A stretch of 64,000 nucleotides of DNA from positions 992,001-1,056,000 of the forward strand of contig NW_020289976.1 in NCBI RefSeq assembly GCF_003144245.1. Direction: 5' to 3'. Of the stretch, positions 7,470-64,000 are shown piece after piece. The notes beneath the pieces were generated by a model. It was not told the origin of the DNA and did no database searches. It saw nothing but the letters and a program-made list of their open reading frames with translations. Numbering within the stretch: the stretch's first letter is position 1; each line of letters begins with the position of its first letter. This DNA is from Jaminaea rosea (lineage: Eukaryota; Basidiomycota; Exobasidiomycetes; Microstromatales). A program made the translations under genes and the position numbers.

Positions 7470-9482
7470 TCAATGCTTGTGGGCGCGAAGGCGCTTCGCC
7501 GCATGGGCAGCTACGGCATGGTACTCAGCGAGGGCGGGAGGAGTTGCGGGTCCAAAGCCTGCACCGCCGGGGAATGACTTGGTAATGTCGGGCAGTCCCT
7601 TGCCTACAGCGGCGAGCCCATCGGCGAAGGCCTTCTCGTAGCTAGGGAAAGCCTTGACGAAGCTGGCGAGAGCGGCAGCCGTGTTTGGGTCCGAGGCAAG
7701 CTTCGAAGCAAAGGCGATGTAGTCGGGGACATTGATGCCCGTAAAGGAGCCAGCGATAGCCTTGGCGAGGTCAGGAGAGGAGGCGAGGAAGGCTTTGACG
7801 CCCGAAGCTACGGCCTTCTCGGTGTCATCCCAGTCGACCTTGCTGGCGAGGTCCTGCGTCTTGGCCGCGGCGTCGGCGGCTTGCTTTGCGAGGTCGTCGA
7901 AGCTAGGCAGTTGAGGAGCACTATCGCGGCGGCCAAACGTCATGCTGCCCCAGTCGTCGATGTGGCTCTTGACGGCCTCGTACTGAAGTTCAGCCTGCTT
8001 AGCAATGGCGGGGATCATGGCAATGGCCTGGTTGGTGAGACCCTGGCGATCGCGATCCTCTTTGCTCATCTCAGATTCCTTGACGCGACGCTCCATGGTA
8101 GACGGTGCAGACACGCCGCTGCTGAGATCCTCCCTTATCTTCTTGACTACGGCGTCGGCCTGCAGCTGAAACTCCTTCATCTGGACGGGGACGAGAGCAG
8201 CAATCTGCATGGCGATACCTCGGATTGACTTGAGGTTCTGGTCCTCGTCTGCGAGTTTGCGAGCAGTGGGAGGCTTGTTGGCAGAGGTGTCCTCATTGTG
8301 GCGATCAGCAGCGTACTCCTGCATGACCGTGTTCCAGAGCTCTTCAATCTCCTTCTTAGCAGCCGCAACGTCACCGTGGTGCTTCTTGAGCTCGGCCGCA
8401 GCGACGGCTCGGAGCTCGGTGCGGATCTTGTCCATCTTGGCAGCGGTAGCCTTCGACATCTTGGGGGCAGGGTGCGCGTCTCGACGCTGAAGAGGGTTCC
8501 AGTTACCATCGAAGACTTCCACGAAGGGCCAGCCGAGGTGCATGTTACCACCGGCGGCAGCTTTGCCTGCAGCGTCGATACCCGTGAGGCCGGCGTCCAA
8601 ACCGCCTGCCGCGCCAGCAGCACCATGAGCGCTGAGCACAGGGAAGAGCGGAGAAATGATCACCTCACCGCCACCCTGAGTACGGCGCTCGAGAGAGTGT
8701 CCGCCCTTCCCGATTTCAATGAAGGGCCAGCCGAGGTGAAGGTTGCCTTCGCCACCAGCCTTACCCCCGGCGTTGATGCCCCCAATACCAGCATCGATGC
8801 CGCCCGCGCCTCCTGCGGCACCGTGCGCACCAAAGATGGGGCCGAAGATCCCGCCGCCGACAGAGGGAGGGTCCTTGTTGCCCTCGTCATCACTGTGCTC
8901 AGGCTTGGGCGTAGGCATAGGCTTGGGCTTGCCCTCGGGCTTAGGCTCAGGCTTGGGCTTATCCATGCCGGGATGAGGCTTAGGTTTGTCAGCGACAGGA
9001 TGAGGGTGGGGTTTGGGATGGGGGGCGGTGCCAGTGGGAGGCGTCTTCTCGGGCGCTCCCTTGTCCTTGTCGTCGGGGCAAGGCTTCTTGAGGATGGGGC
9101 CAATCGGACCAGCCTTGGCGTTGGCGACTGCCGTGCCAGTAGCCTTGGCCATGAGGCCGCCATCTCCAAGAATCATGTTGAGGATGGCATCGAGGCCGGC
9201 GTTGGCATTGAAACCAGCGCCTCCAAGATTGCGACGCTGATTGTGCTGATTGGTCTCGAGGATCTTGACGCAAGGATTGTTGATCAAAGCGGGGTCCCAA
9301 GAGCCTCCGACTGCGGTGGGATCGTAGTTGTCGTTCATGCAAGAGACCTTGTCACCGCCTGCAGAGATCCAGTCCTTGATCGTGTGGTCACCAGCAGGTA
9401 CGGCGATGGGCACAGCTGAGGCGATGCTGCCGATGGCAATTGCCGTGGCGACAAAGGCGAGGAATTGACTGTCGAACCTCAT
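7470..9482 (-). CDS. Secreted repeat protein with five Arg-Arg (kexin-like) sites
   Basis: Secreted protein of 670 residues with no family I recognise. The start at 9482 (MRFDSQFLAFVATAIAIG) begins a signal peptide likely cleaved after ASA near residue 23. The mature part has a Cys-containing N-terminal segment, then a Lys-Pro-rich linker (about 153-196). Two diverged copies of a Gly/Ala-rich unit follow (about 209-267 and 271-334), each ending in HLGWPF[IV]E and then an Arg-Arg pair (LERR, LQRR). Further Arg-Arg pairs lie at about 83-84, 465-466 and 518-519, splitting the mature chain into separate pieces. The C-terminal half is Ala/Lys/Asp-rich and probably helical. Arg-Arg after a signal peptide is the classic Kex2 site, so a processed precursor is inferred. 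It has no intron and is isolated, with no biosynthetic neighbours. Confidence 0.85.
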   Translation of the reverse strand: MRFDSQFLAFVATAIAIGSIASAVPIAVPAGDHTIKDWISAGGDKVSCMNDNYDPTAVGGSWDPALINNPCVKILETNQHNQRRNLGGAGFNANAGLDAILNMILGDGGLMAKATGTAVANAKAGPIGPILKKPCPDDKDKGAPEKTPPTGTAPHPKPHPHPVADKPKPHPGMDKPKPEPKPEGKPKPMPTPKPEHSDDEGNKDPPSVGGGIFGPIFGAHGAAGGAGGIDAGIGGINAGGKAGGEGNLHLGWPFIEIGKGGHSLERRTQGGGEVIISPLFPVLSAHGAAGAAGGLDAGLTGIDAAGKAAAGGNMHLGWPFVEVFDGNWNPLQRRDAHPAPKMSKATAAKMDKIRTELRAVAAAELKKHHGDVAAAKKEIEELWNTVMQEYAADRHNEDTSANKPPTARKLADEDQNLKSIRGIAMQIAALVPVQMKEFQLQADAVVKKIREDLSSGVSAPSTMERRVKESEMSKEDRDRQGLTNQAIAMIPAIAKQAELQYEAVKSHIDDWGSMTFGRRDSAPQLPSFDDLAKQAADAAAKTQDLASKVDWDDTEKAVASGVKAFLASSPDLAKAIAGSFTGINVPDYIAFASKLASDPNTAAALASFVKAFPSYEKAFADGLAAVGKGLPDITKSFPGGAGFGPATPPALAEYHAVAAHAAKRLRAHKH
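8481..8858 (-). repeat. Two diverged internal repeats ending in HLGWPF and Arg-Arg
   Basis: Inside the secreted protein, two units of about 60 residues share the order GPIFGAHGAAGGAGG or LSAHGAAGAAGG, then [IL]DAG, G[IK]-rich Ala/Gly, then HLGWPF[IV]E and a closing Arg-Arg. The genomic copies are roughly 8682-8858 and 8481-8672. The repeat is coding and old enough to have diverged at many positions while keeping HLGWPF. Confidence 0.75.
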
Positions 9483-62735: not shown

Positions 62736-63118
62736 CCTTGCCTGTATGGCATGCGCGTACTCATCTGCGTCCTCCGCTCGACCTCCTGCCGCCGCTAGCC
62801 CCTCTAAATCGCTTCAAGACCGCGGCGGCTCTTGAGATCGATGCCTCTTCGATGGCGGCGGCCAATATGTCAGTCTTACCGCATCGATATCGAAGGAGAG
62901 AATGAGAGCAAGGGCGACGAGAAAGCGATGGGCCAAGGGGCGGGACAGCATGGCATAAAAGAGGAGCGAGGTGAGCTTCCTACCCTCTTCTCCTTCCTCA
63001 TCCAACTTTACTGCTCGCTTCTCGAGGTTGATCCTTGAGCGTTCACCCTTTTGACTGCGTCAAGGCCCACTGCTAGCTACGCCCCTTCCATCGTCCACCC
63101 GACCAACCTACAAACGCC
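62736..63118 (+). promoter_or_regulatory. Promoter of the secreted minisatellite gene, with a TATA-like element
   Basis: This 383-bp upstream region of the 63119 start holds GCATAAAAGAGG around 62953-62964, the best TATA-like element in the window, about 160 bp before the ATG. A TATA box would suit a strongly regulated secreted gene. Confidence 0.4.
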
Positions 63119-64000
63119 ATGCGCCCCGTCTTCGTCCTCGCCACCTTGGCTCTTTCCACCCTCGCGATGGCTTCGCTGGACGGAGCCCGACTTAACAACG
63201 ACGTCGCTGCTCTGCGTGAGCGCGAGGAAGCCGTCGTCTCGCAGTACAAGCACCATGCTCGCGGCCAGCGCAGCGTGCACTTCATGGTTCGTGGCCACGG
63301 CAAGCACTTGCAGCACAAGCGTGCTACCCAGAGCCAGCATGAGGAAGCGGCACGCCAGATCGAGAGCCGCAGCTCTTCCTCCTCCGCCATTGCCGAGACT
63401 CGTGAGCCTTCACGCTCTGGTTCGAAGTCGAGTACGACGCCAAAGACCACGGGCGAACGCGTCAGTACGGGGAGCTTTGACGGCTTCAAGGCCCGTGACT
63501 CCGGGTCCAAAAAGTGCAAGCCTAAGAAGAAGAAGCATCACCATCACCATCATGATGACAGTGGCCTGGGCTCGTCGGGTCCTTCTTCGTCGTCCTCCTC
63601 GACGCCATCGTCCTCCTCCCCAGAGACCGCTCAACCGCCGCAGAACGGTACGACTGATGGTGGCAGCCCGCCATCGTCGTCGACGCCCTACACCAATTCC
63701 TCCTCTTCCACCCCAGAGATCGCTCAACCGCACCAGGACGGTACGAATGGCGATGGCAGCTCGACCCCTTCCGTCAGTAAGCCATCTTCGACGACTCCCT
63801 CTACCAACTCCTCCTCTTCCTCTTCCACCCCAGAGACCGCTCAACCGCACCAGGACGGCACGAATGGCGATGGCAGCTCGACCCCGTCCATCAGCAAGCC
63901 ATCTTCGACGACTCCCTCTACCAACTCCTCCTCCTCCTCCTCCACCCCAGAGACCGCTAATCCGCAGCAAAATTGTGTGAATGACGGTAGCAGCTCGAAC
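63119..64000 (+). CDS. Secreted Ser/Thr/Pro-rich minisatellite protein (3' partial)
   Basis: N-terminal 294 residues of a secreted protein cut by the right edge; the frame is open to the end. ATG 63119 begins a clear signal peptide (MRPVFVLATLALSTLAMA). A charged segment of about 110 residues follows, with a Lys-Arg pair (HKR) near residue 70. Then comes a basic/His cluster KKCKPKKKKHHHHHHDD (about 138-154). From there on it is a Ser/Thr/Pro-rich stalk made of tandem repeats of 39 residues (TPETAQPHQDGTNGDGSS, then P-S-T-rich). Such stalks are usually heavily O-glycosylated spacers before a C-terminal enzyme or anchor domain, which lies outside the window, so the function is unknown. The last repeat here is diverged (ETANPQQNCVND), which may mark the stalk's end. 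Confidence 0.8.
   Translation, partial: MRPVFVLATLALSTLAMASLDGARLNNDVAALREREEAVVSQYKHHARGQRSVHFMVRGHGKHLQHKRATQSQHEEAARQIESRSSSSSAIAETREPSRSGSKSSTTPKTTGERVSTGSFDGFKARDSGSKKCKPKKKKHHHHHHDDSGLGSSGPSSSSSSTPSSSSPETAQPPQNGTTDGGSPPSSSTPYTNSSSSTPEIAQPHQDGTNGDGSSTPSVSKPSSTTPSTNSSSSSSTPETAQPHQDGTNGDGSSTPSISKPSSTTPSTNSSSSSSTPETANPQQNCVNDGSSSN
63620..63992 (+). repeat. 117-bp coding minisatellite
   Basis: The marker CCAGAG recurs at 63620, 63713, 63830 and 63947. The last two spacings are exactly 117 bp (39 codons); the first is 93 bp (31 codons). The units starting at 63713 and 63830 are nearly identical, which suggests recent expansion. All spacings are multiples of three, so the protein frame is kept. 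Confidence 0.9.

Follow-up and report, generated by a model that had tools for sequence, protein, structure and literature searches.

The question raised by this locus is whether a long open reading frame (ORF), lying in the 64,000-nucleotide stretch of DNA that was analysed (the window), encodes a secreted precursor that kexin would cut at Arg-Arg (RR) pairs and, if so, what kind of product would be released. An earlier note on this DNA had read the ORF as a kexin-processed chain of repeated cores, marked by a conserved HLGWPF motif and separated by dibasic sites. The ORF was found intact, its N-terminus reads by eye as the signal peptide that had been proposed, and there are five RR pairs in all (residues 83, 266, 333, 465 and 518), together with a KR at residue 663. 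These sites, the fragments that cutting after them would produce and the duplicated units are listed below.

7470..9482, minus strand: whole ORF, 670 aa plus stop, uninterrupted (from the sequence and from codon adaptation in one frame)
9414..9482, minus strand: predicted signal peptide, residues 1-23, predicted cut between ASA and VP, read by eye
9231..9413, minus strand: fragment 1, residues 24-84, 61 aa, probably an acidic pro-region, containing two of the protein's three Cys, ending HNQRR
9231..9236, minus strand: RR site 1, residue 83, Asn at P4
8682..9230, minus strand: fragment 2, residues 85-267, 183 aa, with the third Cys, a Pro/Lys-rich spacer and the first Gly/Ala unit, ending SLERR
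8868..9062, minus strand: Pro/Lys/His-rich spacer, residues 141-205, inside fragment 2
8682..8861, minus strand: unit A1, residues 208-267, with HLGWPF at 8721-8738 (HLGWPFIE)
8682..8687, minus strand: RR site 2, residue 266, Leu at P4
8481..8681, minus strand: fragment 3, residues 268-334, 67 aa, the sole A unit that would be cleanly excised
Residues 270-334, minus strand: unit A2, in fragment 3, with HLGWPF at 8523-8540 (HLGWPFVE)
8481..8486, minus strand: RR site 3, residue 333, Leu at P4
8085..8480, minus strand: fragment 4, residues 335-466, 132 aa, starting DAHPAP and ending TMERR
8136..8258, minus strand: unit B1, residues 409-449, from alignment against shuffles
8085..8090, minus strand: RR site 4, residue 465, Met at P4
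7926..8084, minus strand: fragment 5, residues 467-519, 53 aa, ending TFGRR
7959..8072, minus strand: unit B2, residues 471-508, from alignment against shuffles
7926..7931, minus strand: RR site 5, residue 518, Phe at P4
7491..7925, minus strand: fragment 6, residues 520-664, 145 aa, ending AAKR
7491..7496, minus strand: KR site near the C-terminus, residue 663, Ala at P4

The whole ORF looks coding and free of introns, since codon adaptation is high in its own frame and along its segments: it reaches 0.532 in that frame, compared with 0.182-0.289 in the other five, and ranges from 0.49 to 0.57 by segment. The start at 9482 is supported because adaptation falls to 0.253 over the 303 in-frame bases upstream of this ATG. 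The reference for these values came from the same genome and consisted of ORFs at three loci of the HSP70 family and one of the EF-Tu family. As a baseline we used 62 ORFs of at least 350 aa from the window and 200 kb of contig C1, a set that includes the 670-aa ORF itself, mixes all localisations and possibly holds some spurious ORFs. Within it the ORF ranks second in codon adaptation (one is higher; median 0.328), the ranking having taken it with its upstream extension. Such a bias suggests that the gene is strongly expressed and that its product is probably abundant. A home-made signal-peptide filter applied to the window and the 200 kb listed mostly doubtful ORFs and missed the 670-aa protein, and was dropped.

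The RR pairs are far more numerous than the composition of the protein predicts (five, against a shuffled mean of 0.59; P=0.0002), and KR, RK and KK show no enrichment over shuffles of the 670 residues. The observed-to-expected ratio for RR, 8.0 (5 against 0.63), is the highest among the 62 ORFs; the runner-up stands at 5.5 on a small count (3 against 0.55), and the pooled ratio of the 62 is 1.49. The strong part of the case is this enrichment, found in a duplicated, codon-optimised and secreted-looking ORF, and not the short motif.

The residues around the pairs add less. At P4, kexin prefers Leu and can also accept Ile, Val, Ala or Pro (PMC8528282). Measured against 381 RR sites from the 61 other ORFs, a residue of the class LIVMF occupies P4 at four of the five sites (67/381 in the background, P=0.004), this class having been picked after the sites were seen. 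Leu alone gives 2/5 against 26/381 (P=0.04), LIVM 3/5 (P=0.03) and LIVA 2/5 (P=0.37), and the published list of L, I, V, A and P gives 2/5 against 119/381 (P=0.50). Because the outcome depends on the residue class, P4 is kept as weak support. Asp stands at P1' in two of the five sites, and the P1' class containing Asp is over-represented at cleaved kexin sites (PMC2515848); in kexin assays one third of candidate substrates stayed uncut (PMC2515848). Dipeptides of the Ste13 type follow the predicted signal cut (VP IA VP) and RR site 3 (DA HP AP), a frequency that is not above chance for the RR sites (1/5, P=0.15) and reaches P=0.015 with the signal cut included (2/6).

A kexin gene, and with it a protease that could act on these sites, is present in the same genome, where one match to the P-domain of kexin was found (locus L005, contig C12, 101833-102093); in the surrounding ORF we read a subtilase, a membrane span and an acidic tail. 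Units A1, A2 and B2 each adjoin an RR, and the B pair is split by RR site 4. Taken from sequence, this is fair evidence that the protein is designed as a kexin substrate, with cleavage predicted at the pairs. The RR enrichment and the kexin gene therefore uphold the precursor logic of the earlier note, but not its picture of repeated cores between dibasic sites: the fragments would be 61, 183, 67, 132, 53 and 145 residues long, and only two of them hold an HLGWPF unit.

What would such cutting release? Our preferred reading, held tentatively and with somewhat less than even confidence, is a strongly expressed, kexin-cut mosaic precursor of surface or cell-wall polypeptides, which would work in the manner of Rep1 and Hum3. 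The precursor would enter the secretory pathway, and kexin would cut it in the late Golgi after the Arg-Arg pairs and perhaps also at the C-terminal Lys-Arg, beyond which a tail of six residues follows fragment 6 (the protein ends AAKRLRAHKH). This would release an acidic pro-region along with roughly five larger polypeptides, the latter serving as cell-wall or surface material outside the cell. Its hydrophobic parts would be the Gly/Ala-rich units, with their Trp/Pro/Phe tail; hydropathy is +0.23 and +0.32 for the A-unit segments (residues 206-267 and 268-334) and lies between -1.0 and +0.09 in the six other segments. The Pro/Lys-rich spacer, which at the DNA level overlaps a degenerate 6/12/18-base tandem repeat at 8897-8961, would hold one Gly/Ala unit in the wall. 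The C-terminal pieces would probably be helical. AlphaFold2 models made without an alignment are of low confidence (mean pLDDT 39.7 for the whole protein and 44.2 for residues 335-670), and for this reason only a probable helical tendency of the C-terminal half, fragment 4 included, was taken from them.

Several results count against the preferred reading. The published P4 list is at background, only one A unit is cleanly bounded, and the fragment that carries A1 is hydrophilic as a whole (hydropathy -0.60 for fragment 2). Helical amphipathicity exceeds that of shuffles in one of eight segments (P=0.024), and that segment is neither A unit. The uncut substrates in the kexin assays mentioned above weigh in the same direction, as do knockouts of genes for KEPs (KEX2-processed repeat proteins) in Coprinopsis, which reportedly gave no detectable phenotype (PMC9769878).

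With published KEPs the protein shares dibasic sites, internal duplication and a signal-like N-terminus (read by eye here). The two surveys of such proteins demand at least three repeats. The pipeline of Le Marquer 2019 asks for a signal peptide and the absence of a membrane span, and needs at least three similar fragments, and at least four fragments after KR/RR cutting (PMC6339444), while Umemura 2020 needs at least three tandem repeats of at least 8 aa between Kex2 sites (PMC7329392). Our protein would give six fragments before the C-terminal one, but pairwise alignment finds at most two similar fragments, and two repeats, per unit type. With two units of each type it is not a KEP by either published definition, although as a secreted precursor carrying kexin sites between its units it would operate along the same lines. 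Since both surveys set this minimum of three repeats, they would miss precursors whose units are few, diverged and of mixed type; if the present protein is cut as predicted, mosaic precursors of this kind are undercounted as a source of surface polypeptides in fungi, and its strong codon bias points to an abundant product.

Rep1 and Hum3 of Ustilago maydis are the nearest functional analogues, likened to our protein by design and not by sequence. Rep1 is likewise secreted, has 652 aa with kexin sites between its units, and includes a single long 228-aa piece as well (PMC4617103, PMC2515848); unlike our protein, with its two plus two diverged units, it is made of units that resemble one another, ten to twelve in number and 34-55 aa in length. 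Hum3 is a secreted mosaic in which imperfect repeats separated by kexin sites are followed by another domain (PMC4617103). There, however, the repeats number seventeen and the domain is a hydrophobin, whereas here there is no Pfam match and there are three Cys. Precursors of the Ece1 type differ in having seven repeats and cleavage shown in vitro (PMC2515848), whereas cleavage of the present protein is predicted. A different kind of precedent is Rsp3 of Ustilago, a repetitive surface protein for which no processing is predicted (PMC5923269).

Because Rsp3 is such a protein, it is a realistic if less probable alternative that the product is a secreted structural wall protein, left intact or losing only its N-terminal pro-region, with the RR pairs lying in exposed linkers between domains. 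The large and unequal spacings between the pairs, the two different unit types and P4 residues no more kexin-like than background on the published list would all suit an uncut chain. What an uncut chain would leave unexplained is the specificity of the enrichment for RR and its first place among the 62 ORFs.

The internal duplication is clear. Units A1 and A2 are identical at 37 of 59 aligned residues (z 19.8 against shuffles), as expected of the two diverged Gly/Ala-rich units described earlier, and B1 and B2, which flank RR site 4, at 12 of 38 (z 6.3, 0/300 shuffles). A third, marginal similarity lies inside fragment 6 (z 3.8, 1/300 shuffles), between halves that have no RR between them; this similarity and the B pair came from 45 segment pairs drawn up by eye. 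The units had also been described as bounded by RR, which is true of A2 on both sides, whereas A1 has an RR behind it only and lies 123 residues from the preceding one. Consequently only A2 would be freed cleanly, as a piece of 67 residues, and A1 would stay on a piece of 183 residues that is on average hydrophilic and includes the Pro/Lys spacer.

The earlier note took the HLGWPF motif as conserved in otherwise diverged repeats and hence as a possible selected short product or surface motif. An exact, unspliced search of the 16.6 Mb genome for codons spelling HLGWPF gave two sites, both in this ORF; 66 residues separate the copies, and the RR follows them at a distance of 11 and 12 residues. 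The block NxHLGWPFxE is identical at 8/10 positions, against 29/49 elsewhere in the alignment (one-sided Fisher P=0.19), AHGAAG is an identical run of the same length between the A units, and the longest identical run is at least six residues in 81% of shuffles. Run length and block conservation thus fit the overall identity of 63%, and both the unusual conservation and the selected core are rejected at the protein level.

At the nucleotide level the motif does stand out. The 18 bases of HLGWPF are identical in the two units (8721-8738 and 8523-8540), and codons are the same in 7/7 informative columns of the block against 6/29 outside it, where 23 of the 29 columns identical in amino acid differ (Trp excluded). 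The probability of this identity is 0.0002 by Fisher's test, 0.002 by label shuffling, 0.009 under the codon usage of the window and 0.04 under that of the gene, the signal being weaker in the last case because preferred codons converge. The pattern was spotted post hoc, on inspecting the alignment, and is only a hint; it could stem from gene conversion, from a constraint on the nucleotides or from preferred codons that the two units share. Estimates of dN/dS between A1 and A2 are 0.28/2.04 (NG86), 0.32/2.42 (ML) and 0.46/0.57 (YN00); with synonymous sites too diverged and composition too skewed, we make no claim of selection on the A units.

These results bear on a second alternative, namely that kexin cuts the precursor as proposed and the pieces act on other cells, as effector-like or signalling products, and not as wall or surface material. 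Bioactive peptides released by kexin and effectors with pro-domains are known (PMC8528282), the shuffles and the ranking among the 62 ORFs would serve this explanation equally well, and the codon-identical block could mark a product. We nevertheless consider it unlikely: the strong codon bias better fits an abundant product, the pieces are large (53-183 aa), and conservation of HLGWPF in the protein is no better than chance.

The preferred reading, of a mosaic precursor of surface material, also admits a more ambitious version. The protein might represent a class of mosaic precursor, processed by kexin, that is new and specific to its lineage; one transcript would yield several unlike surface polypeptides, namely helical pieces and two Gly/Ala units, one of them free and the other held in the wall on the Pro/Lys spacer. 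It would then replace the design of many similar repeats seen in Rep1, and perhaps hydrophobins as well, and the codon identity of HLGWPF would reflect local gene conversion or nucleotide constraint. We regard this version as speculative and rather doubtful.

It seems improbable that the RR excess arose by chance in a secreted protein low in Arg and has no meaning for processing. The gene was chosen because RR looked frequent in it, RR pairs tend to exceed expectation throughout this genome (the 1.49-fold pooled ratio), and the support from P4 varies with the residue class; an 8.0-fold excess that ranks first of the 62 ORFs, with a shuffle probability of 0.0002, is nonetheless difficult to reconcile with chance.

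Pfam searches of 18 other stretches of the window gave matches, at the thresholds applied, to families of a housekeeping type for 13 (ARM/HEAT repeats, RRM, Med13, carbon-nitrogen hydrolase, NPC1, adenosine deaminase, NUDIX, sybindin, MMM1, EF-G, glutaminase, Cut8 and DNA polymerase alpha/epsilon subunit B) and nothing for five. The kexin, Cut8 and MMM1 matches point to a fungal origin, and the genome size together with long uninterrupted ORFs suggests a relative of the smuts. None of the 18 matched a tailoring enzyme, UstYa included, in agreement with the earlier note, which had seen no such gene beside the ORF. Across the genome UstYa (PF11807/DUF3328) had no match, and no control genome matched either; a short domain broken up by introns can be missed. 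A RiPP or pheromone-type precursor with HLGWPF as its core product would account for the signal-like N-terminus, the RR sites and a repeated aromatic motif, but is highly improbable given two copies only, at 66 residues from each other, the 11 and 12 residues that part them from RR, and the lack of a tailoring enzyme among the scanned stretches and of a UstYa match in the genome, the latter qualified by the controls.

Standing alone is common among KEPs, 2560 of 7878 of which do so (Umemura 2020, PMC7329392). No paralogue of the protein was found in its own genome: searches with the whole protein and with its A, B and C-terminal regions returned the locus itself and two weak matches, one of 30% identity over the Pro/Lys spacer (E 0.14, whole-protein query) and one to an ORF that reads as membrane-transporter-like (E 0.47, B-region query). 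Among viral contigs 5 and 292 stretches fitted a pattern, and among prokaryote genomes 28, with none confirmed as a relative, a result that is expected for a fungal gene and therefore no proof of an orphan. Pfam assigned no family to the 670-aa protein (best E 0.074), no PDB chain was found by sequence at E up to 1, and neither HLGWPF nor LGWPF was found in the literature searched.

The hydrophobin domain carries eight Cys. With three Cys in its whole length and no Pfam match, the 670-aa protein does not read as a hydrophobin. The genome gave no family match for class I or class II hydrophobins, and no control genome matched; the domain may also be broken up by introns.

A second secreted-looking repeat protein lies at 63077-64000 of the window, on the plus strand, where it is cut off by the window end. 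The part seen has one KR, no RR and no Pfam match. Its N-terminus, MRPVFVLATLALSTLAMA, is signal-like, and is followed by a Lys/His-rich patch and then by a Ser/Thr/Pro-rich region with a tandem repeat of 117 bases (39 residues), present in 2.3 copies with 93% matches.
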